From a virus, in IMG/VR virus record IMGVR_UViG_3300025770_000004, positions 1 through 64,000 of that record: a stretch of DNA of 64,000 bases; one strand, 5' to 3'. A model generated the notes under the pieces. It was not told the origin of the DNA and did no database searches. It was given only the letters and a program-made list of their open reading frames with translations. Made by a program: the position numbers and the translations under genes. Shown here piece after piece: positions 179-24,380 of this stretch; the first letter of the stretch is position 1; every line of letters starts with the position of its first letter.

Positions 179-322
179 ATGAATAAAATACTAATATACC
201 TCATCAGACGGAAGTGGAAAACATTGTGGGATAGATGTTCTGATAGTAAAGAGTATGCCATAAGGAGAAAGAAATATGAGGGTATGATATGGGAATTAAA
301 CCAAAACAAAGAAGATGAGTAA
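179..322 (+). CDS. small basic protein, unknown (47 aa)
   Basis: ATG 179 opens a 47-residue frame rich in Lys/Arg/Trp that ends LNQNKEDE. That C-terminus is written by the recurrent junction sequence AAACCAAAACAAAG(AA)GATGAG, which also carries the start of the next gene at 315. The same ending occurs on other small genes here, which supports translation of this one. No family recognised. Confidence 0.5.
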   Translation: MNKILIYLIRRKWKTLWDRCSDSKEYAIRRKKYEGMIWELNQNKEDE

Positions 323-395
323 AAATTTAAAAGAGAAAATTGCTTTTTTTATATTAGGATCTGTAGTGACGTTACTATTAATTTATATTTTGTAA
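315..395 (+). CDS. single-span membrane microprotein (26 aa)
   Basis: ATG 315 lies inside the end of the preceding gene (GATGAGTAA overlap). The 26-residue product has a short basic head (MSKNLKEK) followed by one uninterrupted hydrophobic segment to the C-terminus, so it would be a single-pass membrane peptide. Support comes from its position in the chain of overlapping genes; the short length keeps confidence low. Confidence 0.35.
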   Translation: MSKNLKEKIAFFILGSVVTLLLIYIL

Positions 396-419
396 CACAC
401 GAAACTTAAAACAAAGAAG

Positions 420-605
420 ATGGAGAAGATTTCGTTATTAGAGTTCTATACTAAATATTGTAAAGTAAATGGCAAAGAGCCTACCATAACAGATAAGGAT
501 AAATGGTTGCTTGAAAATTTAGAGAGTGGTAATATACAAAGAGTATGGACTCGTAAATATGGATGGCAATACAAACAATTAAACCAAAACAAAGATGATG
601 AGTAA
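420..605 (+). CDS. small protein, unknown (61 aa)
   Basis: The gene starts after the leader AAAACAAAGAAG and ends QLNQNKDDE, the junction-encoded tail. It is a mixed charged/aromatic 61-residue protein without recognisable motif. It overlaps the next gene by the GATGATGAGTAA junction, which suggests translational coupling. Function unknown. Confidence 0.6.
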   Translation: MEKISLLEFYTKYCKVNGKEPTITDKDKWLLENLESGNIQRVWTRKYGWQYKQLNQNKDDE

Positions 606-948
606 AGAAAGAAACATATCAGAAACACCAGATAGGTGGGTGGTCCTTAAAATACCACAAACAGGTACCGCATCGTTATATAAAATATTTGGTAGCTGGG
701 CTGGTGGATATCTAGATGGAGATAGATGGAAGATGAATAGTGGTATTGTTTCCCTTGAGGAAGACGATGATTATTATTACTTCATTGGATATAGTGGTAG
801 TTGTTACAAATGTCATAAGAAAGGTTATGGTGTAATGACATCATATAGTCAATCTATATTAGATAATCTGATTGATAAAGCTAATGAAAGAGGTGTAAGT
901 ATTAGTGTATTGTTAGATGATGTAAACTTTATGGAACTATTAAACTAA
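598..948 (+). CDS. conserved phage protein, unknown (SGSCYKCHKKGYG motif)
   Basis: A 116-residue protein starting MSKERN; an ATG three bases earlier (595) is also possible, but MSK-type starts after GATG recur at 315 and 8826. The middle carries GSWAGGYLDGD and SGSCYKCHKKGYG, a pattern I associate with a widespread small phage protein of unknown function. The two Cys and one His in SCYKCH could bind metal, although no second pair is obvious. It overlaps the end of the upstream gene. Confidence 0.75.
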   Translation: MSKERNISETPDRWVVLKIPQTGTASLYKIFGSWAGGYLDGDRWKMNSGIVSLEEDDDYYYFIGYSGSCYKCHKKGYGVMTSYSQSILDNLIDKANERGVSISVLLDDVNFMELLN

Positions 949-952
949 AACA

Positions 953-1228
953 ATGATTAATAAAGACGAAAAGATATTACATGAAATGTACAGGCGTAGT
1001 TTTAAGGCTAGTACACCTTCGGGGGATTGGGATGAGATATTATCCAATAGTGTAGTAGGTGAGAATGGAATGAAAACTATTGACTACATGGCTTACGAAT
1101 GTGATGATGATATAATGAAACGAATAGTGGAAGATGTACTAAAAGAAAATAAAGTATTTACAAAGCGAAGAATTCAACAATTTCAAACAGCCTTTTATTT
1201 AGGATGCAGTCCAAAAACCAAAAGTTGA
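953..1228 (+). CDS. conserved hypothetical protein (91 aa)
   Basis: It starts four bases after the preceding stop behind the A-rich leader CTAAAACA. The product is acidic at the N-terminus and basic near the C-terminus, and appears alpha-helical. No motif identifies it. It belongs to the same plus-strand chain of small genes. Confidence 0.6.
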   Translation: MINKDEKILHEMYRRSFKASTPSGDWDEILSNSVVGENGMKTIDYMAYECDDDIMKRIVEDVLKENKVFTKRRIQQFQTAFYLGCSPKTKS

Positions 1229-1234
1229 AAATCA

Positions 1235-1840
1235 GTGTATAAATCTATCTTATTGTGTTTATTCATATTCACACAACAATTTCTTTATTCACAGATTATA
1301 TGGGTTGAGGATTTTACTCCTTACCTTGATGGTACACAAAATGCATTAAAATGGACAACCAGTGCTAATAATTGTGATGCAGATGGACCACCAGGATCTG
1401 TAGCTGGTAATTATTGGGGAACTTTTAATGGTGAGTTTAGGTGTGAAGATATTGAAGGTTTAACTTGTTGTTCGGGAGGTTCGGGAGGACAAGGTGAAGC
1501 CAATAATTTGTGGTTATCAGAAGATATACCAATCAACGGTTACTCTAGTATTTATTTATCCATAACGACTAGGGTAGAAGGTGATGTAGAATGTGCCGCA
1601 TGTGGTGCCGGTGGTGATTACTTAGAAGCTTCATATCAAATAGATGGTGGTGTATGGATTCCTTTTGTAACTATTTGTGGAGCAACTAATGGATTTATTA
1701 GTACTGATTGTATTTATATCGGTATAGGTAATATCTTAAAGATAAGAGTTTTATTAGGTAACCAAGCAAACAACGAAGTTTATTATTTTGATGATGTTAT
1801 AGTTTATACAACACAAAGTAATGTCATTTACCATAATTAA
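1235..1840 (+). CDS. exported Cys/Gly-rich protein with C-terminal YHN
   Basis: A 201-residue protein from a GTG start (VYKSILL). Residues 2-20 form a signal peptide ending FLYSQ, typical of flavobacterial exported proteins. The mature part is rich in Cys, Gly, Trp and Asp (CSGGSGGQG, CAACGAGGDY) and ends YYFDDVIVYTTQ followed by a short tail closing in YHN. The region resembles beta-sandwich domains of Bacteroidota surface proteins; ending in -HN is shared with the exported proteins at 18005 and 18586. Likely exported during infection; substrate and role unknown. No host-type sorting domain is present. Confidence 0.7.
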   Translation: MYKSILLCLFIFTQQFLYSQIIWVEDFTPYLDGTQNALKWTTSANNCDADGPPGSVAGNYWGTFNGEFRCEDIEGLTCCSGGSGGQGEANNLWLSEDIPINGYSSIYLSITTRVEGDVECAACGAGGDYLEASYQIDGGVWIPFVTICGATNGFISTDCIYIGIGNILKIRVLLGNQANNEVYYFDDVIVYTTQSNVIYHN

Positions 1841-1850
1841 GAAAATTAAT

Positions 1851-2180
1851 ATGTACCAAAGTATGAACTATGAAGAGTTCCGGCCGAAGCCAAAGCAACA
1901 ATACCATTTAATACAGACTATACATATATGGATGTTCGATAAAGACTGTACCGGTAAATTTAAAGTAAACCCTATTATTTTTATGGATAAGGTTACCCAT
2001 TTCATAATACACCAAGAGGTTAAAAGAAAGAAGTATATATTCTTCTCAGAAACATTATATGTACCTATGAAGGACCTTATAACATACTCTAGTGATAAAG
2101 CACAAACTATGCTTGAGGACGTTAAGAAGTTTTATAAACCAATCCATCGAGCTAAAGTACTAGCACAAGTATTAAAATAG
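1851..2180 (+). CDS. small phage protein, unknown (109 aa)
   Basis: I choose ATG 1851 (MYQSMNYEEF), which follows the A-rich leader AAGAAAATTAAT and clears the preceding stop; an in-frame ATG at 1821 would overlap the exported gene by 20 bases. The product is basic and aromatic with a helical C-terminus (EDVKKFYKPIHRAK). No recognised family. Confidence 0.6.
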   Translation: MYQSMNYEEFRPKPKQQYHLIQTIHIWMFDKDCTGKFKVNPIIFMDKVTHFIIHQEVKRKKYIFFSETLYVPMKDLITYSSDKAQTMLEDVKKFYKPIHRAKVLAQVLK

Positions 2181-2221
2181 AAAATTATGAGAATAAAATC
2201 AAAAACATCAAATTATTCAAA

Positions 2222-2287
2222 ATGCTAGGAGTAGAACAATTCCGATATCCACAATATAACCGTAAAGAACTAATCAAAGATGAATAA
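2222..2287 (+). CDS. possible 21-residue peptide
   Basis: A short frame MLGVEQFRYPQ... ends in the GATGAATAA overlap with the next start at 2280. It fills an otherwise empty 100-base spacer and keeps the overlap pattern of its neighbours. Evidence is positional only. Confidence 0.25.
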   Translation: MLGVEQFRYPQYNRKELIKDE

Positions 2288-2501
2288 AGAACAAAAACAA
2301 ATTAATTATCTAATATCAACTATTAGAGATAATGAGGTATATGAGGACAAGCCTATTGATGAGTATCTTTCATTCGTATCAGATTTATTATGCCAATTTA
2401 ATATAGATGTTGCTATTAAGGTTATGGAAGGTTTAGAGGAAACTTTTGGGAAAGATGCAATATATCAATCAACTGCAATAAAGGTCAATTATGGATATTA
2501 A
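2280..2501 (+). CDS. small acidic protein, unknown (73 aa)
   Basis: Starts in the overlap CAAAGATGAATAAAG. The product is helical and acidic (DKPIDEYLSFVSDLLCQFNIDVAIKV region) with no recognised motif. It ends 12 bases before the next start, with the junction sequence AAAACAAAACAAAG between them. Confidence 0.6.
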   Translation: MNKEQKQINYLISTIRDNEVYEDKPIDEYLSFVSDLLCQFNIDVAIKVMEGLEETFGKDAIYQSTAIKVNYGY

Positions 2502-2513
2502 AACAAAACAAAG

Positions 2514-2735
2514 ATGAGTATAATTAAATTATTGTGGTGTAAGGTTGTTGGTCATAAAGTGACAGAAACTCACTCAAAGGAATATGATGGTAGTATTGAA
2601 ACTTACAATATCTGTAATAGATGTGGTTGTGAAACTAACCACACAACATTTTATGATTGTACGGATTTTACACCAGATGATTTAATAAATATAAAACTAA
2701 ACCAAAACAAAGATGAAAAGATATCAAGACAGTAA
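2514..2735 (+). CDS. small putative zinc-ribbon protein (73 aa)
   Basis: Starts directly after AAAACAAAACAAAG. The central segment ICNRCGCETNHTTFYDC supplies a CxxC pair plus additional Cys/His in a zinc-knuckle-like arrangement; an HKVTETH segment precedes it. The C-terminus includes LNQNKDE from the junction sequence and overlaps the next gene by 23 bases. Metal binding is inferred, role unknown. Confidence 0.6.
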   Translation: MSIIKLLWCKVVGHKVTETHSKEYDGSIETYNICNRCGCETNHTTFYDCTDFTPDDLINIKLNQNKDEKISRQ

Positions 2736-2928
2736 TTGGATAGTAAAACTATGGAGATTACGACATTACGTATATATTCCATTCAGATTTATTAGTTGGA
2801 AGTTAAGGGATAACGAATTTCACTACAAAGATATGTGGAAAATACTAATAGGTTCAGCACAATGTGATATGAATTGGACATATACAACAGAAGAAGTTAA
2901 AGAATATATTAAAACAAAACAAAGATGA
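2713..2928 (+). CDS. small aromatic basic protein, unknown (71 aa)
   Basis: ATG 2713 lies immediately after CCAAAACAAAG. The product is unusually rich in Trp, Tyr and Arg (WIVKLWRLRHYVYIPFRF), which suggests a membrane-surface or nucleic-acid-binding peptide, though no family is recognised. Its end IKTKQR is encoded by the next AAAACAAAACAAAGATGA junction. Confidence 0.55.
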   Translation: MKRYQDSNWIVKLWRLRHYVYIPFRFISWKLRDNEFHYKDMWKILIGSAQCDMNWTYTTEEVKEYIKTKQR

Positions 2929-3188
2929 AACTAATATTTTGTAAAGAGTGTACCGATGTTGTTAGATTAACAACATCCAATATTAAGTCATGTGACTGTG
3001 GTAAGTCAGAAGGACATTACACAGATGAATTAAACGCTTGGTATAGTGGACCTTGTATTCCATTAGGGTTTGCAAATTCATCATTTAGAACCGCATTAAA
3101 TAATCAACCAGCTTCTATATGGGGTAAGACTTTTGATGCGTTTGTAATTGAAAAAGATTGCCCAACATTTAAACCAAAACAAAAATGA
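2925..3188 (+). CDS. conserved phage zinc-ribbon-like protein (87 aa)
   Basis: The N-terminus has CKECTD and CDCGKSEG, two paired-Cys knuckles typical of a rubredoxin-like zinc ribbon, followed by NAWYSGPCIPLGFANSSF. This arrangement occurs in a widespread family of short phage proteins of unknown function. It starts in the ATGA overlap with the previous gene and ends FKPKQK, the junction-coded tail. Confidence 0.7.
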   Translation: MKLIFCKECTDVVRLTTSNIKSCDCGKSEGHYTDELNAWYSGPCIPLGFANSSFRTALNNQPASIWGKTFDAFVIEKDCPTFKPKQK

Positions 3189-3485
3189 GTTTAGTAAATA
3201 AATGGCAAAATAAACTACAACTAACAGATTGGGAATTTCTAACACAAGAGATAGCATCATATCAAGTTGTATATGATAATGATTGTCCGGATGAAGATAA
3301 GTACTTTGTAGGAATAGATGTCTTAAAAAAAGACAGGAATCATTTATCATGATAGAGAAATTAACGAGAGAGACGTTATACACGAATTACTTCATGTGAA
3401 GTATCCAGATAAAAGTGAGAGTTGGGTTAATGAAATTGAAGAATTAATAACTACTATACAGAATTACCCACGTTTATTTGTATAA
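3185..3485 (+). pseudogene. frameshifted HELLH zincin-like phage protein
   Basis: The first frame (3185-3352) starts MSLVNKWQNKLQLTDWEF and stops soon after a run of seven A residues at 3325-3331. Removing one A joins it to a second frame that reads KTGIIYHDREI, VIHELLHVKYP and SWVNEIEELI and stops at 3485. The joined product of about 100 residues has the HExxH zinc signature (HELLH) and a plausible third ligand Glu in WVNEIEE, as in small zincin-like proteins found in phages. Either the gene is broken by one inserted base, or the run is a sequencing error or slippage site. The joined reading is convincing; activity is not. Confidence 0.65.
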
Positions 3486-3489
3486 TCAA

Positions 3490-4083
3490 TTAAAAAGACC
3501 TAATTGCACGAACTGTGCGTATAGAGTTCTTAGCGAAGTCGTTCATGTAACCATTTGCGAAACGGAAGAGGAACGCATCTATAGTAGTGGTCTCCGTGCT
3601 ACTCCAATAAAGAGCTGTGGATGACAATAATGTAAAAGCGCCTGCACGTAATGCTGCATTGGCGTGGAAACGGTTATGCCATAAAAGACTTAACTCATCA
3701 ATACTTGGTAAATACCAGCCTGCACCTAATCCTGTAACATAAGATTCAGCATCACTTAATGTCATTAATCCAGTATTGTATGCTCCGTCTTCTGTTCTGT
3801 CTGCACCAGTTAAAGTTCCTGTTGCTTGCCAAACGGCTGTACTTTCAGTTTTACTTACTATTAAACCATGTTCTAGACCATCACTACCTTTGTATAAATG
3901 ATAAATGATTCCTCCTCCAAAATCTTCTCCTAAGTAATGTACAAAACCACCACCAATAGAACTAACAGTAGCTCCATTTTTTTCTGATAAAGATTCATCA
4001 TCATAACCAAGATACTTATATCCTGTTGGTGAATCACTTAGTTCATTTATTCCATTGTTCTTAAAGATTATTCCTCTTGCCAT
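3490..4083 (-). CDS. tail adhesin with DUF1566/C-type-lectin-like end (DGR target candidate)
   Basis: A 197-residue protein. The N-terminus (MARGIIFKNNG, PTGYKYLGYDDESLSEKNG) resembles the start of Bacteroidota-phage tail-tip or fibre proteins. The rest matches the DUF1566/Lcl type of C-type lectin fold: WYLPSIDEL, LYWSSTE and a terminal TVRAIRSF. The last 35 codons contain many codons ending in C (TTC, CTC, TAC, AAC, GAC) that are rare in the neighbours, as expected where AAC template codons are diversified by a reverse transcriptase. Likely role: host-receptor recognition. A TTAATATATA element lies just upstream (4106-4118). No reverse transcriptase or template repeat is in the window. Confidence 0.7.
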   Translation of the reverse strand: MARGIIFKNNGINELSDSPTGYKYLGYDDESLSEKNGATVSSIGGGFVHYLGEDFGGGIIYHLYKGSDGLEHGLIVSKTESTAVWQATGTLTGADRTEDGAYNTGLMTLSDAESYVTGLGAGWYLPSIDELSLLWHNRFHANAALRAGAFTLLSSTALYWSSTETTTIDAFLFRFANGYMNDFAKNSIRTVRAIRSF

Positions 4084-4170: not shown

Positions 4171-4242
4171 GGCCTGTTCGTCTAGGGGTTAGGACACATG
4201 GTTTTCATCCATGAAACAGGGGTTCGATTCCCCTACGGGCTA
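4171..4242 (+). tRNA. tRNA-Glu (anticodon TTC)
   Basis: Cloverleaf visible by eye: acceptor GGCCTGT pairs with ACGGGCT (two G-T wobbles), anticodon stem CATGG/CCATG encloses TTTTCAT giving anticodon TTC, T-arm GGGGTTCGATTCCCC. The discriminator base is A; CCA is not encoded. It reads GAA, a codon heavily used in this AT-rich genome. Confidence 0.93.
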
Positions 4243-4318
4243 CAAAAATCTATGGGTAATTCTGTATATTATGTTATGTACAAGTATGATAACAGACTTA
4301 TAACACAAGAGAAGTTAT

Positions 4319-4819
4319 TTAACTTATTGTAAAGATTAACTTAATAATTTCACCTTTAGCCATAGATAAATGGTCTAATTCCTCTTCCAACTCTTCCTTT
4401 TCTAAGAACTCAGTATCTACTGCACTATCAAAGTATGGCATATCTGAACCAAGCTCAAACATTACTTTATATCCCTCACTATCCATATAGTCTCTTAATC
4501 TTCTAATACTATCACTAACCTCTGTTGGTAATCCTTTATTATCACCTCCAATATAGCTAACTTCGCTTATGATATCAATAATAATAACATCTAAGTCATA
4601 ATCATTAGCGATGGTATCAACTTTGTTGTCTGGATAGATATCATCCCAAGAGAATGATTTAATCACTGTACGCATATCTGATGCCTTTATAAATGAATTA
4701 GTTTTAATACGAGTACTAAACATAGGATCATCATCAATAGATAATAAGATATCATCTATACTATCAAACACATGGTTATCAATACCTTCGAATAATGGAT
4801 AGGATTTTATATGTTTCAT
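4319..4819 (-). CDS. leader-bearing putative internal head protein
   Basis: A 166-residue acidic protein beginning MKHIKSYPLFEG. The leader fits the shared M-K-[HY]-[LI]-K-x-[YF]-x-[LIF]-F-E pattern and offers an LFE cut site for a T4-type prohead protease. After it comes the segment DSIDDILLSIDDD, a version of the DI-L-E/D helix that follows the leader in most relatives. It is last in a four-gene minus-strand operon with ATGA/TAATG overlaps. Packaging in the head is inferred from the leader only. Confidence 0.7.
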   Translation of the reverse strand: MKHIKSYPLFEGIDNHVFDSIDDILLSIDDDPMFSTRIKTNSFIKASDMRTVIKSFSWDDIYPDNKVDTIANDYDLDVIIIDIISEVSYIGGDNKGLPTEVSDSIRRLRDYMDSEGYKVMFELGSDMPYFDSAVDTEFLEKEELEEELDHLSMAKGEIIKLIFTIS

Positions 4820-5382
4820 ATCTTATTACCTTTTACTTTAATAAATACCGATGGTGTATGTGTTGGTTTCCTATAATGTGACATTACATCACCTTTAACA
4901 AAAGCACGTATGCGTTCTGGATCCCAAGCAATAAATGTTCCAGATTGTGTTGAATAATTAACACCGAAATAAACATCGACTTCATACCCCTTTGATTTAA
5001 CATAGTTATGTATTTGTATAACTACATCCTCAACATCACCAATCTCTACGTTTGACCTTGGTCCTCTTAAAGCACCACGCGCCGCTCGCGTATCACCACT
5101 TGTCCAACCATTCTTTATATAGATATTAAATAAAGAAAAATTATCTAATGGGTGTGTGTAATCTTGTGGTGCTGATACTTCTTCATCAGATTCAACATCA
5201 GTGAATTGTTGTGTTTTATAACTAGGTACCGACCAGTTATAGCTGTTCCTGTTGTTTTGAACAGACTTTTGAATTTTATAATCCTTATCATATAAATCAA
5301 GTAGCATATCTTCTACCTCATCTAACATATCTTCTGAATTAGAATTAGATTCAAATAATTTATATGTATTTATATATTTCAT
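4816..5382 (-). CDS. leader-bearing putative internal head protein
   Basis: A 188-residue protein starting MKYINTYKLFES, with LFE at the predicted cleavage point. The helix EVEDMLLDLYDKDYKIQ follows, matching the 'DI-LDL-D-GY' segment of its relatives. The C-terminal half (HNYVKSKGYEVDVYFGV) resembles the end of the 26040 and 52340 products, so these look like divergent copies of one fold. Overlaps the next gene by four bases. Confidence 0.7.
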   Translation of the reverse strand: MKYINTYKLFESNSNSEDMLDEVEDMLLDLYDKDYKIQKSVQNNRNSYNWSVPSYKTQQFTDVESDEEVSAPQDYTHPLDNFSLFNIYIKNGWTSGDTRAARGALRGPRSNVEIGDVEDVVIQIHNYVKSKGYEVDVYFGVNYSTQSGTFIAWDPERIRAFVKGDVMSHYRKPTHTPSVFIKVKGNKI

Positions 5383-5939
5383 AGCTTAAATAATTTATCT
5401 AATAGCTCAAAGGCTTCTTTTAATTTATCATCTGATATGTTATTTAAATTAAATCTATTCTTTTTATATGTGTAATCACTTATCATAGCTTCTTTATCTC
5501 TCTTATTAGCTTCTTCATCAGAAATAAGATTAATATAAATATCAATAATATTTTTATACGCCTTCTCATCCTTTGTGGTTACATGATACCCAGTTGATTC
5601 TCTTATCCTATCTCTTTGATTATCAATGAATTTTAATAACTTATAAACCCTATCTCTATCGATGTTCCATACACCAATTGATATTATCTCTTTATCAGTC
5701 TTAGAGTTAGAGGCATCAAATAGATCACCCTGTATATAATACCCATAAGTCATTGGTCCGCCTCCAAAACCAGAATCCACAACCTCACTTAGATAATCAT
5801 CATAAGTAGTAACCTTATCTCTATTAGGTAATGGATGTATACCATTTTCATCAAAGAACTCTAATAATATATCGTGTATGATATAAAATACTTCGTTTCT
5901 TTCTGAATGACTTTCATTTATATGTCTTAGGTGTTTCAT
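5379..5939 (-). CDS. leader-bearing putative internal head protein
   Basis: A 186-residue protein with the shorter leader MKHLRHINESH (INE in place of LFE). The following segment FYIIHDILLEFFDENGI carries the family helix. A central VWNIDRDRVYKLLKFIDNQ helix is followed by a charged coiled C-terminus. Overlaps both operon neighbours by a few bases, so all four genes should be co-translated. Confidence 0.68.
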   Translation of the reverse strand: MKHLRHINESHSERNEVFYIIHDILLEFFDENGIHPLPNRDKVTTYDDYLSEVVDSGFGGGPMTYGYYIQGDLFDASNSKTDKEIISIGVWNIDRDRVYKLLKFIDNQRDRIRESTGYHVTTKDEKAYKNIIDIYINLISDEEANKRDKEAMISDYTYKKNRFNLNNISDDKLKEAFELLDKLFKL

Positions 5940-6490
5940 TAGTAAAAGATTTTTATATCGATGTTATCACATTTAACATCATTATTGGCAGCATCTCTAA
6001 GTTGGCTCATAACCTTATCATCAGATGGGTTATTCATAATGAATAAATCCCCAACTAGTCCACCATCTTCATCCTCGTATTCTACTTCTAAATCTATCTT
6101 AATATTCAATTCATTCATCTTAGAGTAATCACAAAGCCTTAATAACACATCATTTAATACCTCAAGATCATTTTCACTTATCATATTGACTTTATCAGCA
6201 TCTCTATCTATATTAGCTCTATCTATATTAGCTCTATCTATATTAGATTCTTTATATATGTTAATAGTTATAAACTCATCTTTCTTATTCTTTCTATAAA
6301 TTGGTTTAGATCCCCAATAGAAACGTACATCATCTAGTGTTTGTTTATCATTTTTCTTATTTGATGTGAATTTATACCCAAGAGTTTCTAATTCAAGTAG
6401 AATATCTCTAGTGTCGTTAAGTATATCATCAGATACCTTTAACTTCTTTTTATTAAATGTAAATAATTCATATGTCTTTAAATGTTCCAT
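5939..6490 (-). CDS. leader-bearing putative internal head protein
   Basis: I place the start at ATG 6490 (MEHLKTYELFT), because the alternative ATG at 6496 lies within the TTTTTAATATATATG promoter-like motif and would add two residues before the leader. The family helix is DILNDTRDILLELETLGYKF. A threefold repeat NIDRA/NIDRA/NIDRD occurs near the middle (about residues 107-121), coded by nearly identical 15-base units. First gene of the minus-strand operon. Confidence 0.7.
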   Translation of the reverse strand: MEHLKTYELFTFNKKKLKVSDDILNDTRDILLELETLGYKFTSNKKNDKQTLDDVRFYWGSKPIYRKNKKDEFITINIYKESNIDRANIDRANIDRDADKVNMISENDLEVLNDVLLRLCDYSKMNELNIKIDLEVEYEDEDGGLVGDLFIMNNPSDDKVMSQLRDAANNDVKCDNIDIKIFY

Positions 6491-6494
6491 AATC

Positions 6495-6508
6495 ATATAT
6501 ATTAAAAA
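6495..6508 (-). promoter_or_regulatory. late-type promoter candidate
   Basis: TTTTTAATATATAT on the minus strand ends five bases before ATG 6490, so any transcript would have almost no leader. Same motif as at 29989, 41037, 52302 and 60287. Confidence 0.45.
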
Positions 6509-6522
6509 TAAATATGATTTTC

Positions 6523-6554
6523 CTTGTGTATGTCAAATATTATCCGTATATTGT
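6523..6554 (+). promoter_or_regulatory. promoter of the 6.55-kb RNA candidate
   Basis: CTTG at 6523-6526, 20-base spacer, TATATTGT at 6547-6554. The block GTCAAATATTATCCGTATA recurs at 10465-10483, where CTTG-20-TATATTTA (10456-10487) is again present. No coding frame of note follows on this strand. Confidence 0.5.
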
Positions 6555-6645
6555 AGTATAGGTTGAAAGGTAGATAGACGTATCTAACCACAGCAGAAGC
6601 CATCGGGGGTTAGGCGGAGACCTGCCTTAAACTTTCTTAACATAT
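6555..6645 (+). ncRNA. candidate structured small RNA
   Basis: Non-coding between two minus-strand genes and clearly richer in G+C than its surroundings. Two hairpins can be drawn on the plus strand: GGT-AGATA (6570s) with TATCT-ACC, and TTAGGC-GG with CC-GCC-TAA (about 6611-6631, two single-base bulges). A promoter-like element ends right at its 5' side. I recognise no known RNA class. Confidence 0.35.
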
Positions 6646-6670
6646 ATTAGGTTCTTAATTATATTATCCG

Positions 6671-6712
6671 TATCTTTACATGATGCCTTTTATTTTTATA
6701 TAAAAATAATAC
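6671..6712 (+). promoter_or_regulatory. promoter plus AT palindrome, repeated element
   Basis: TATCTTTA (6671-6678) preceded by ATTATCCG and followed by ACATGATGCCTTT, then a palindrome TTATTTTTATATAAAAATAA. The same arrangement occurs at 10473-10516 with a different palindrome sequence. It would produce a very short transcript running against the 6733 gene. Confidence 0.4.
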
Positions 6713-6732
6713 ACGGAAAAGTAAAGAGATTA

Positions 6733-7203
6733 TTATTTATAAACATCACTAAATTCTACATAATCATATGCGAAATCTTTGGGTTTTATATTTAACTCGA
6801 TTCCTTGGTCATTAATTAAATCGATTATTATTTTAGCATCACGGACGGTCTTTGCTAACATGGCTGTTCTTTCCCTCAGAAATAAATTTAATTTACCATC
6901 ATAAACACCACCAATTATGCGGATAGTTTCATCCCCATCATTACCAGTTATTTTAATCCGGCAAGTGCTGTTAGTTCTTGGAGGAATAATTTCAACATTT
7001 ATATTATCAACAATTATATCCTCATCATTATTTAACATAAAAGACACTAACCCTACTTCTGATGTACCATGTTCAGCGGAATGAGAAGTAAATCTTTGTG
7101 CTAATTTTGTTCTTCCCGCTTCTCTTGATATTTTAGCAGCTGAAAAATAAGTAGATTTATTTAATTCATAAATATGTGATTCAAATGTTTTTAAGTGTTT
7201 CAT
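6733..7203 (-). CDS. leader-bearing putative internal head protein (STYxSAA type)
   Basis: A 156-residue protein starting MKHLKTFESH. After the leader comes LNKSTYFSAAKISREAGRTK, which parallels KTSTYLSAADKLEGLHPTR in the 29401 product; both end in a similar IDLINDQGIELNIK/ISIELGIKMLIK stretch. The two are therefore paralogues. Encoded alone on the minus strand with a TATTAATATATAG element about 35 bases upstream. Confidence 0.68.
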   Translation of the reverse strand: MKHLKTFESHIYELNKSTYFSAAKISREAGRTKLAQRFTSHSAEHGTSEVGLVSFMLNNDEDIIVDNINVEIIPPRTNSTCRIKITGNDGDETIRIIGGVYDGKLNLFLRERTAMLAKTVRDAKIIIDLINDQGIELNIKPKDFAYDYVEFSDVYK

Positions 7204-8085: not shown

Positions 8086-8158
8086 TCATGGCAAACAATA
8101 ATATCCTTATATTTGTAATTAAACCAAAACACAGATGAATAAAATACTTTATATTTAA

Positions 8159-8323
8159 ATGAAATTAATAGAATTAGTAATGAGAGTAGGTGAGATGTGC
8201 CCTGGATGTATATTAGTAATCAGTGATAAGCAATATTACAATGAAGATGGATCATTCACTATCGAGAGAGGTGGTAAGAAACTTATTCTAAAGAAGAACC
8301 TATTTAAACCATATAAATTGTAA
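8159..8323 (+). CDS. small CxxC protein, unknown (54 aa)
   Basis: ATG 8159 opens MKLIELVMRVGEMCPGCILV..., with a single CPGC pair and a basic end KKNLFKPYKL. A TATATTTG box lies about 40 bases upstream. The last 60 bases recur in degraded form at 10196-10255, which shows the gene belongs to a family duplicated in this region. Confidence 0.5.
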   Translation: MKLIELVMRVGEMCPGCILVISDKQYYNEDGSFTIERGGKKLILKKNLFKPYKL

Positions 8324-8428
8324 TGATGAGGAACGTGAAGAGGTAATAACAAACTTTTTTAATTGTGGACCTGCAGCAAGCATTGTTGGTGATAGGTAAG
8401 TGTGAGTTAACTATAAAATATATATTAA

Positions 8429-8617
8429 ATGATAACAGAAAAAGAAGCAGATAATTGGATAACTAAAAATAAGGATAGACACTGGAATGTTCCTAAAATG
8501 ATGGTAGAGTTTGCCAACGATAAAGTAAAAGAGGTTGTAAAGGAAATACACTCTCAGACTAAAGATAAAGACAAGCCTCTTACACCCGAATGGATAGGTT
8601 TTAAGAGTTATCTATAA
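8429..8617 (+). CDS. small protein, unknown (62 aa)
   Basis: The product is highly charged and helical (MITEKEADNWITKNKDRHWN...) with no recognised motif. The 105 bases before it hold no convincing gene. Downstream lies the abnormal tRNA-like locus. Confidence 0.5.
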   Translation: MITEKEADNWITKNKDRHWNVPKMMVEFANDKVKEVVKEIHSQTKDKDKPLTPEWIGFKSYL

Positions 8618-8636
8618 CGGTTTGAATATGAATAGT

Positions 8637-8717
8637 AGCGGTTTGGGTGTGGTGTGGTTCGATTCCACAAAGCTATATGCTAAAGGCACTACGTAGGTTC
8701 GACTCCTACAACCGCTA
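8637..8717 (+). tRNA. tRNA-like locus lacking a D-arm (degenerate or atypical)
   Basis: The ends form a perfect acceptor, AGCGGTT with AACCGCT plus discriminator A, and GTAGG-TTCGACT-CCTAC is a perfect T-arm. Between them TGTGG-TTCGATT-CCACA is a perfect 5-bp/7-nt hairpin. If that is the anticodon arm, the anticodon would be CGA (Ser), but only nine bases are left for the D-arm. The remaining AAGCTATATGCT stretch could be a long variable arm. It may be a decayed tRNA or a fusion of two T-arms. Confidence 0.4.
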
Positions 8718-8825
8718 TTATTTATATTTATTGTTATGTGCTTTTTTAATTGCATCATAACGTAATAGTAGAACACGTTTTAATGTGGTTTAAAATTAGT
8801 TATGAATTAAAACAAAACAAAGATG

Positions 8826-9035
8826 ATGAGTAAAGAAGATAATAACTACATAGTATTTGCGGAAGATTCAACTGCTATGATGCAAGAGGCATTAATACAA
8901 CAGAGCAATCCATTAACAAAGGAACGTGCTATTGAGTTTGCAGAAAGAATTAAAGATAGAGATAATTTATTTTGTGTTACTATTCTGAAAAGAGTTAGTA
9001 AAAAAGAATTAAACAAAAACAAAGAAGATGAATAG
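8826..9035 (+). CDS. small protein, unknown (69 aa)
   Basis: Starts MSKEDNNYIVF after AAAACAAAACAAAGATG; an ATG three bases earlier is possible. Helical, charged, ending KKELNKNKEDE, the junction-coded tail that overlaps the next start. No family recognised. Confidence 0.58.
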   Translation: MSKEDNNYIVFAEDSTAMMQEALIQQSNPLTKERAIEFAERIKDRDNLFCVTILKRVSKKELNKNKEDE

Positions 9036-9219
9036 ATGTCTTATACTGCTATTGGTGTTTCTGTCTTTACAAAGCTATGGACAGATGTACCGATGGCAGA
9101 TGGACGAGGGAGATTTAAAAGTCTTTACCAAAGAACAATTCAAAACCCTAAGTCAATCTGGATTAGTTAATGGTGATATGACTCTGAAAGTACAAAAAAT
9201 GAAAGATGATGAAAGATAA
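9028..9219 (+). CDS. small exported protein (63 aa)
   Basis: Residues 1-19 (MNRCLILLLVFLSLQSYGQ) form a flavobacterial-style signal peptide ending SYGQ. The mature part is about 44 residues, acidic then basic, without motif. It starts inside the preceding gene's end. Likely periplasmic or surface exposed; role unknown. Confidence 0.6.
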   Translation: MNRCLILLLVFLSLQSYGQMYRWQMDEGDLKVFTKEQFKTLSQSGLVNGDMTLKVQKMKDDER

Positions 9220-10948: not shown

Positions 10949-11065
10949 TTAGAAATATACAGAAATCCACACGGAATTTTGTATAAGTCCAATATAAATT
11001 AAGTTTAATAAAATACCTCTCAATGAGCTTATACCATTATCCTTAAATATTATTCCTCTTGCCAT
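10949..11065 (-). pseudogene. truncated copy of the adhesin 5' end (38 aa)
   Basis: Starts MARGIIFKDNGIS, nearly identical to the first residues of the 3490-4083 adhesin, then diverges into an unrelated short tail and stops. Similarity continues upstream through the shared promoter region (to about 11130). It is a remnant of a duplication that also placed the promoter before tRNA-Gln. Confidence 0.65.
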
Positions 11066-11098
11066 TTTATATAGTTTTTTTATTAATGTATATATTAA

Positions 11099-11130
11099 CT
11101 TGATATATTAATATAGATTCCGTATCTTTA
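11099..11130 (+). promoter_or_regulatory. promoter of tRNA-Gln
   Basis: CTTG 11099-11102, 20-base spacer, TATCTTTA 11123-11130, 37 bases before the tRNA. It is homologous to 4117-4148. Confidence 0.65.
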
Positions 11131-11167: not shown

Positions 11168-11240
11168 TGTCCCATGGTGTAACTGGCAACACGTCTGTTT
11201 TTGGTACAGAAGAGTCTAGGTTCGAGCCCTAGTGGGACAA
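11168..11240 (+). tRNA. tRNA-Gln (anticodon TTG)
   Basis: Acceptor TGTCCCA/TGGGACA, anticodon stem TCTGT/ACAGA around TTTTGGT giving TTG, T-arm CTAGG-TTCGAGC-CCTAG, discriminator A. CCA is not encoded. It reads CAA, the favoured Gln codon in this AT-rich genome. Confidence 0.93.
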
Positions 11241-11279
11241 CAAAACACATAACTTACATCAAAGTAAACCAAATACTAA

Positions 11280-22235: not shown

Positions 22236-24266
22236 TTACCCCAACCCTCTAAGTTCATTATTAATTCTTTTTGAATCAAACTTCGCTTGAAGGGATTCAA
22301 ACTCTCGACCTGACGAAACAGGTTGTAATCCGATTAGGTAGTTTACTAATGATTCTTCACTAGGCTTTCTACCCATATAATTAACAAACATATCCATACT
22401 TGGCAGAGATGAGCCCTTACTCAAAAATTCTTCATAATACTTATCACTATCATCATTTTCTCTAAATTTTAAGAAAGTATCAACTGAAAGAACTTCTGAC
22501 CATTTATAAGAGTAATACCCTGCTGAGTATCCACCAGCAAAAATATGACTAAACCCACATTGCCATTTATTACCATCAAAAGATTCCAATCCAAAATCTT
22601 CTATTATCTTATCAAGTGTTGATTGTACATATTCCTTTGACGTATCATCTGATTGGAAAATTGTCATATCGAATTTACCATTCTTCACTTGTCCTATGAT
22701 TCCATTAGCTGCTCTGTATGTTCTTAAATCGTTAATCTTTTTAATGAACTCATCCGGTATTATTTCACCAGTTTCATGGTGTTTACCAAATTTCCTTAAT
22801 ACATCTCCTTCATAAACAAATAGTTCTAAAAATTGAGAACTCCACTCAACAGCATCCCACTCGATACCACCTATACCAGCGTATGTGAAATCTTCCACTT
22901 CTGAACAGACGTGTTGTAATACATGTCCCATCTCATGAAATAGTGTTTCTACTTCATAGTGTGAAAGTAATGATGGTAACTTATCAGTTGATGGTGTGAA
23001 ATTGCAAGTTATATAAGCAATTGGTAAAACCTTTTCACCATTTTCCTTTACATAACCAACTTCTGAATTATTCATCCAAGCACCGGATCTTTTATCATCT
23101 CTAGATTCTAGATCGATATAAACTCTTGAATGTTCTTCACCATTACGTGTTATATCATACACAGTAACCTTTTCATCCCAAACATAAGTATCTACTTTAG
23201 TAAATTTAAGCTTGAATTTTTCATACAGAAAGTCAAATAAACCATTTAACACCATTGATTGTTCAAAATATGGTTTCAAATCTTCTGACTTAAAATCATA
23301 AACACTTTCCTTATATTTATTTGTGTAATAACCTTTATCCCAAGAGTTTAAATGTGTTACGCCATACTTTCTTTCAGTGAATGATAATAATTCATCATCT
23401 TCTTTTGACTTAATAGGTAAGGCGATTGTTGCTAACCTATCCAAAAACCCAACTATTTCATTTGGACTATCAGCCATTTTTGTTAATATCGATATCTCAG
23501 CGTAATTTTTATATCCTAATATTTTAGCCTTTTCGTTTTTAAGAGTTAATATTTTTTCAATAAGTTCTTCATTTTCAGTAGCTCTTGTTGATAATGCTTT
23601 GGATAATTTCTCTCTTATATCTGTGTTAGATCCATACTTTAAGTAAGCTGAGTATGATGGTGCTTGTAAGGTAAATTCCCAATGATCAGTATCCTCTTTT
23701 ACATGTCTTTGTAATTCATCATCAGGGAACTCACTAACATCTTCTGGATTTTTTACTTCTAGTTTGAAATCCTTTGTAGCTTTTAGTAGGTTTGTAGAAA
23801 ATGAATCAGATAACTCAGATAACTCTTTGCTAATTTCACCAAGCCTTTTCTTAATTGAATCTTCTTGACCAATACCCTTTAGTTTGTTACTAAGCAATGA
23901 TTGTTCGATTACTATGCGCTGACTTGGGTTAAGATTTGTTTTCGAAACCTCCAATAATGCTTGATGAATGTCATCTCGTTGACCTATCTTTGTGTACCAA
24001 TCACTCATAATTGGTAAGCTCTCAGTTTCAACACGTTGTGTATCATCAGTATTCTTAACTGAATTTATGTGTGATAGATAAAAGTAATGATTGTTTATAT
24101 CTTCATAAGCCATGAAATATGGCTTTAGGAAAGTATCATATGTTTTATTATCAATTTTTAACAATTCATTTATTACTAATTCTGACTTATTTAATATACT
24201 CTCAAGTTCTGATATATATGTTTCTAAGTTTGGGTATTTAAATTCTGGGTATTTATACATTTTCAT
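22236..24266 (-). CDS. prlC: M3-family zinc oligopeptidase
   Basis: A 676-residue protein with the usual length and layout of oligopeptidase A/Dcp. The zinc site HEMGH is at about residues 444-448 in YEVETLFHEMGHVLQH, the third ligand Glu lies in EWDAVEWSSQFLE about 25 residues on, and the substrate loop GGYSAGYYSYKWSEV follows near 595. It lacks a signal peptide, so it acts in the cytoplasm on short peptides. Start ATG 24266 or 24260 (MYKYPEF). Rare in phages; may degrade signal peptides or cleaved leaders, or a host defence peptide. Gene symbol reflects family only. Confidence 0.88.
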   Translation of the reverse strand: MKMYKYPEFKYPNLETYISELESILNKSELVINELLKIDNKTYDTFLKPYFMAYEDINNHYFYLSHINSVKNTDDTQRVETESLPIMSDWYTKIGQRDDIHQALLEVSKTNLNPSQRIVIEQSLLSNKLKGIGQEDSIKKRLGEISKELSELSDSFSTNLLKATKDFKLEVKNPEDVSEFPDDELQRHVKEDTDHWEFTLQAPSYSAYLKYGSNTDIREKLSKALSTRATENEELIEKILTLKNEKAKILGYKNYAEISILTKMADSPNEIVGFLDRLATIALPIKSKEDDELLSFTERKYGVTHLNSWDKGYYTNKYKESVYDFKSEDLKPYFEQSMVLNGLFDFLYEKFKLKFTKVDTYVWDEKVTVYDITRNGEEHSRVYIDLESRDDKRSGAWMNNSEVGYVKENGEKVLPIAYITCNFTPSTDKLPSLLSHYEVETLFHEMGHVLQHVCSEVEDFTYAGIGGIEWDAVEWSSQFLELFVYEGDVLRKFGKHHETGEIIPDEFIKKINDLRTYRAANGIIGQVKNGKFDMTIFQSDDTSKEYVQSTLDKIIEDFGLESFDGNKWQCGFSHIFAGGYSAGYYSYKWSEVLSVDTFLKFRENDDSDKYYEEFLSKGSSLPSMDMFVNYMGRKPSEESLVNYLIGLQPVSSGREFESLQAKFDSKRINNELRGLG

Positions 24267-24380
24267 TTGAATATTTTTTTAATTTTCTAACTCTTCTATC
24301 TCTATGTTCGGGTCTGTCTAGAACCTCTGGTATATCCTATGATTTTCGTCTTCCTTTCTCTCTTCTTTTTCCCCACCACA
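24267..24380 (-). other. spacer with an amber-interrupted short frame
   Basis: ATG 24374 opens MWWGKRREKGRRKS, stops at TAG, and the same frame continues IPEVLDRPEHRDRR and VRKLKKYSNENV to a TAA that overlaps the M3 peptidase start. Read through, it would be a basic 42-residue protein; as written, it is broken. Confidence 0.3.

Follow-up and report, generated by a model that had tools for sequence, protein, structure and literature searches.

How does a phage gene come to end in what looks like the variable region of a DGR when no reverse transcriptase (RT) accompanies it? The question is raised by ORF 3490-4083 (minus strand, 197 aa) in the window, which comprises the first 64,000 bases of a virus record of 312,709 bp. 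The ORF is flanked by tRNA-Glu (4171-4243, plus strand) and by small genes annotated without a function. The first-pass annotation took positions 3490-3620 for the stretch coding the C-terminus of an adhesin with a DGR signature, and this stretch does form the 3′ end of the ORF. The features of the locus are listed below.

3490..4083, minus strand: gene of the 197-aa target-type protein, with an N-terminal anchor and a C-terminal Lcl_C (DUF1566) C-type-lectin-like domain
3931..4083, minus strand: N-terminal anchor module, aa 1-51, with 66.7% identity to the start of a protein of LR745206.1
3499..3849, minus strand: Lcl_C domain PF07603, 35.5 bits, above the curated cut-off
3592..3609, minus strand: constant flank TATTGGAGTAGCACGGAG, codons 159-164; TATTGGAGTAGNACNGAG is common to the variable regions of RT-less phages and the cellular locus L177
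3514..3591, minus strand: core of the variable region (VR), codons 165-190, with NNC/NNT codons at template-AAY positions
3490..3513, minus strand: 3′ constant end GTTCGTGCAATTAGGTCTTTTTAA, similar in the phage locus L029; expected site of a putative IMH (initiation of mutagenic homing)
10985..11130, minus strand: truncated second copy of the leader plus the initial codons of the gene, 102 nt, 87% identity; not part of the VR

The Lcl_C/DUF1566 (PF07603) match covers residues 79-195 of the protein and scores 34.5 bits in one profile search, just below the cut-off of 34.9, and 35.5 bits, above it, in a second. An AlphaFold model built from 21 relatives has a mean pLDDT of 82.8; residues 1-35 are poorly resolved, and the Lcl_C domain exceeds a pLDDT of 90 over most of its length. 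The best solved structural match of the predicted protein is the C-terminal domain of Legionella Lcl, followed by other C-type-lectin-like folds, and the DUF1566/C-type-lectin fold proposed from the sequence is thus corroborated by both the profile match and the predicted structure. The VR is located at the 3′ end of the gene and within this fold, as in a DGR target. The protein of LR745206.1 that shares the anchor, from a huge phage of 634,780 bp, runs on into a different C-terminal domain. Judged by these sequences, the window protein has a common N-terminal anchor with exchangeable binding ends. Probably it serves as a binding protein that is either secreted or anchored to the virion, its binding function and virion location being predicted; 'adhesin' is a putative label drawn from the modelled fold alone.

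Other observations concern the surroundings of the gene. The truncated duplicate at 10985-11130 adjoins tRNA-Gln (11168-11241), as the full gene adjoins tRNA-Glu. A run of unrelated-looking small proteins at 4319-7203 and elsewhere on the minus strand starts like MKHLKTFELFE or MKYINTYKLFE, a type of start also present in LR745206.1 (L022), as a common N-terminal tag. The sequence AATTAAACCAAAACAAAGATGA, likely a common ribosome-binding or leader motif, is repeated around the start codons of many small genes (window positions 294-3196 and 8117-9036). A gene of peptidase family M3 (thimet oligopeptidase-like) is found in this phage record at 22239-24278 of the window.

The NNC codons that had been listed for the variable stretch are present in the sequence. 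They account for 11 of the 26 codons in positions 165-190, compared with 16 of the 158 codons upstream of them (Fisher p=1.7e-4) and with 8.4% of the codons across the 366 ORFs of the record. Only 4 of the 86,252 stretches of 26 codons in the record hold at least 11 NNC codons; the leading one lies in ORF 3490-4083, the only gene among the top stretches listed that attains at least 11 per 26. No other stretch of the 312,709-bp record is as strong an NNC hotspot as codons 165-190. Codon-usage drift alone was set aside as the source of this signal, the hotspot being confined to ORF 3490-4083. Composition alone is nevertheless no proof of a DGR, because the GC content is slightly raised even before the VR, at codons 131-155.

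A comparison by codon position is more telling. The closest full-length relative of the window domain (68% identity) is L029, from a phage contig of 93.7 kb. In the 114 codons upstream of the VR, the two genes differ at 21 first, 18 second and 38 third positions, a third-position excess that reads as the pattern of purifying selection. Within the VR the corresponding numbers are 16, 16 and 6 across 26 codons (Fisher p=5e-4 against upstream). Most independent templates, which are inferred templates and do not include the cognate template repeat (TR) of the window VR, have AAY at 14 VR codons; there the differences number 14, 11 and 1, compared with 2, 5 and 5 at the remaining 12. The window VR had contributed to the pattern by which the templates behind this count were retrieved, and the test was therefore repeated with templates, likewise inferred for the window VR, from RT-linked loci retrieved by protein search; the differences were then 9, 6 and 1 at 9 codons. 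Substitutions between the window VR and L029 hence fall at template-adenine (AAY) positions, with third bases kept.

The same codon-position pattern is displayed by three RT-linked pairs used as positive controls (L072/L083, L067/L069 and L090/L106), and it is absent from three RT-less Lcl_C pairs lacking the NNC signal (L034/L036, L035/L041 and L041/L063). The VR differences between the window and L029 thus appear to be a well-supported footprint of mutagenic retrohoming. Writing by a DGR would explain them simply; selection alone would need to strike exactly the AAY positions. The earlier reading of this stretch as a DGR variable region is accordingly backed by the pattern against L029, by the positive and negative controls and by the class of template, described below, that is found beside RTs.

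The machinery expected of such an element is missing from the record. A search with RVT_1 gave 0 candidates across the whole 312,709 bp, and a profile of 51 DGR RTs, used at maximum sensitivity, returned noise only; the absence of an RT, first remarked for the part in view, therefore holds for the whole record. An Avd-like accessory protein was not found in the record either, and A-tolerant matching for a template repeat over its full length yielded AT-rich noise only. The near-identical repeat beside an RT that the first-pass annotation had proposed to look for was thus sought in the whole record, and neither element was found. As a control of the method, the same template search recovered the TR in 21 of 22 RT-linked Lcl_C loci, nearly always with 0 non-A mismatches. 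The 312,709-bp record has no terminal repeat and is therefore possibly a fragment, so the missing machinery is not final. With no DGR-type RT in a possibly partial record, the gene is not classed as a complete autonomous DGR. A DGR origin can stand despite the missing cassette, because a sister phage judged to be complete has a like VR without an RT.

This sister phage emerged from a comparison of 80 viral loci with related domains, drawn from collections in which very close relatives of the window record may be missing. An RT lies nearby in 21 of the 80 loci, and in L025; for the closest relatives of the window protein, no RT was found on whole contigs of up to 128 kb. In the RT-less loci L029, L037, L039, L041, L042, L045 and L061, NNC makes up 42-67% of the VR codons versus 5-16% elsewhere, and the VRs align codon by codon, with TGG AGT AG. 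AC. GAG, GCG, TTC, GG. and AAG constant. L045 is located in G019, a genome of 61,130 bp with a 240-bp terminal repeat (239/240 identical) and genes for terminase, portal, structural proteins and endolysin, which was judged to be a complete phage genome. No RT and no TR were found in the whole of its 61,130 bp. Four metagenome contigs show the L045 gene with the same surroundings, and its presence in G019 is therefore not the product of a chimera. G019 also codes for GroES-like and GroEL-like proteins (L158 16283-16852 and L156 2621-4237). Another RT-less phage contig with such a VR, G034 (128 kb), has 28 ORFs in common with the window's record.

The phages of L029, L021 and L028 have essentially only the Lcl_C domain in common with the window record. 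L039 and L045 likewise have in common the target domain (90% over 504 nt), two weaker stretches and little else, and this pair was dropped as proof of VR rewriting within a phage. The occurrence of one domain in otherwise unrelated phages indicates that the domain moves, and that VR differences may predate the moves.

From the VRs of the RT-less phages, a template was inferred in which particular codons are always AAY. When its second half was used as a search pattern, 36 viral stretches matched, and a phmmer search with one RT located a DGR-type RT beside 35 of them, which validates the logic of the prediction. A longer and stricter pattern for this VR lineage matched a single genome contig in the collection, CANNJE010000181.1 (L177, 4,466 bp), from the MAG of a lake bacterium of the Chitinophagaceae. 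It contains an Lcl_C target, bAvd, TR and RT, and the cassette is flanked by a Por_Secre_tail protein and by a TetR regulator gene, neighbours that point to a cellular setting. The VR of L177 mismatches its own TR at 20/43 A sites and 0/56 non-A sites. Against this TR, mismatches at A and non-A sites, respectively, amount to 15/43 and 0/56 for the phage VR of L042, 23/43 and 1/56 for L041, 18/43 and 2/56 for L045, 16/43 and 2/56 for L039, and 18/43 and 5/56 for L061. In G034, two short Lcl_C genes lie in tandem (L152 = G034:57001-77000, minus strand, ~6.1-6.9 kb of L152); the VR of the first keeps 51/56 non-A sites of the L177 template, together with the host 3′ end.

The motif TATTGGAGTAGNACNGAG is present in the window gene, in the RT-less phage VRs and in both the VR and the TR of L177, and in 0 of the RT-bearing phage loci fetched. 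The 3′ end in G019, L039, L041 and L042 is GTAAGA versus GTTCGG in the L177 TR, which suggests a separate, unseen template for these four phages. Four patterns revealed no template of this lineage in viral contigs, and the general template pattern, run over 396 genomes of the order, matched only L177 and two low-complexity AAC repeats. A protein search for host targets returned three genomes; in the two new ones, no RT was found within the 3.5 kb fetched.

The window VR itself mismatches the L177 TR at 22/43 A sites and 20/56 non-A sites. This shows no A bias, and the donor of the window VR was therefore a different template. Its cognate TR is not in the record; the exact 3′-end motif and the template patterns were unmatched in viral contigs, and a pattern with up to 3 mismatches was unmatched in 394 Chitinophagaceae genomes. 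A host-side link is suggested by the target in G050 (the MAG of L177), which is 51% identical to the window protein, by the TATTGGAGTAGNACNGAG motif, and by a tree in which the window is joined to L029 (98/84), in the same part of the tree as L177, and stands apart from the main clade of RT-bearing phages. Against this link, only the similarity of the domain and one short constant motif tie the window VR to the L177 lineage, and the L177 cassette comes from a MAG contig of just 4,466 bp.

We favour, with a probability of about 0.72, the reading that the locus carries an orphan DGR variable region of host-side DGR origin that was captured or, less likely, written in trans. Mutagenic retrohoming from a template rich in AAY would once have rewritten the 3′ end of ORF 3490-4083, leaving random residues on the ligand face of the C-type-lectin-like Lcl_C domain. 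This domain behaves as a mobile cartridge among otherwise unrelated phages and the cellular DGR target genes of Bacteroidota. We infer a capture step in which the phage acquired from a host-side DGR target, the presumed donor, a VR that was already diversified, as a snapshot; rewriting of the VR in trans by a host DGR would be the less likely route. Near-identical RT-less phages have identical VRs, and those of near-identical RT-bearing phages mostly differ, although the RT-less pairs are few and very close. Because of this identity, frozen capture appears more likely than ongoing writing in trans, in a weak test on few and close pairs.

That an infected host's DGR still rewrites the phage VR during infection is rather unlikely. 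Such activity is favoured by the agreement of sister phage VRs with the TR of the cellular cassette, which reaches 56/56 non-A sites, and by the host VR 3′ end GTGCGTGCGGTTCGG kept in G034/L061; activity in trans between loci of a single genome is reported (PMC10907252). The identical VRs of near-identical RT-less phages speak against it; the L177 cassette would probably be unable to prime at the GTAAGA end of G019, L039, L041 and L042, and the VR difference between L039 and L045, which have only the target domain in common, may stem from their donors. We are equally hesitant about the wider proposal that Bacteroidota phages keep lectin targets with host-type VRs for a host DGR to diversify in trans during infection, a parasitism of the hypermutation machine, which we hold to be improbable.

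An ordinary phage-encoded DGR, with RT, Avd and TR in a part of the genome missing from the record, is unlikely. DGRs with remote targets are known, the record has no terminal repeat, and the phage with the same N-terminal module reaches 634,780 bp; yet no RT is found in LR745206.1, in G034, in the 93.7-kb contig of L029 or in the complete G019, the TR lies inside the fetched locus in 21/22 RT-linked Lcl_C loci, and the viral collection holds no TR of this lineage by the four patterns. Far less credible still is an origin without any DGR, by ordinary diversifying selection on the receptor-binding loop of a horizontally acquired, GC-richer domain. Receptor-binding loops do diversify without DGRs, the GC rise at codons 131-155 fits an acquired domain, and the third-position rate of the VR (6/26) is not clearly under that upstream (38/114) between the window and L029. 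This account is opposed by the placing of first- and second-base differences on the template-AAY codons (14, 11, 1 of 14 versus 2, 5, 5 of 12 elsewhere in the VR), by RT-less Lcl_C pairs of like divergence, which show the usual third-position changes, and by the agreement of sister phage VRs with a real TR at non-A sites. The preferred reading, an orphan VR of host-side origin, combines a footprint that is real and well-supported with a mechanism of acquisition that is presumed. That the cassette matching the sister phages was found in a lake bacterium suggests that viruses acquire, or borrow, the diversity their hosts generate.

The DGR surveys covered here start from an RT or a nearby repeat pair, and targets on RT-less phages would therefore be missed. 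Here, orphan targets were recognised from the VR alone, and a template predicted from VRs led to a real cellular cassette. Should this hold generally, the diversity made by DGRs would be a common resource moving between viruses and cells, and DGRs would reach further into host recognition by phages than has been estimated. Within a partial literature search, no report was found of phages whose DGR-written targets stand without a DGR, nor of a host DGR that acts on a phage gene.

Bacteroides phages are already known to have DGR targets with Lcl_C-like ends (PMC6199706). The Hankyphage-type DGR of gut Bacteroides phages (PMC6199706; L025 = MT836212.1) resembles the window gene in its C-terminal Lcl_C target, a VR of ~35 codons, an AAY template and the constant WSSTE and K, with 34% identity between the two proteins across the C-terminal 80 aa. 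It unites target, Avd, TR and RT in one cassette, whereas the window record has no RT, Avd or TR, and the domain groups of the two are split in the tree. The fold of the window protein is like that of the Legionella Lcl C-terminal domain (PDB 8q4e, Foldseek E 6.8e-8) and of the B. ovatus fimbrial protein 4eps (Foldseek E 4e-5); these were solved as bacterial surface proteins, whereas the window protein belongs to a phage and has an unrelated N-terminus. The Chitinophagaceae cassette L177 resembles the window gene in its target domain (51% identity at the protein level) and in the TATTGGAGTAGNACNGAG motif, but is a complete cassette in a bacterium, and its TR is not cognate to the window VR. 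The trans-acting DGRs of Thiohalocapsa PB-PSB1 (PMC10907252) include targets that, as here, have no RT or TR of their own and a VR matching a template elsewhere. There, all loci belong to one bacterial genome; here, the target and the candidate machine lie in separate genomes, those of a virus and a host.
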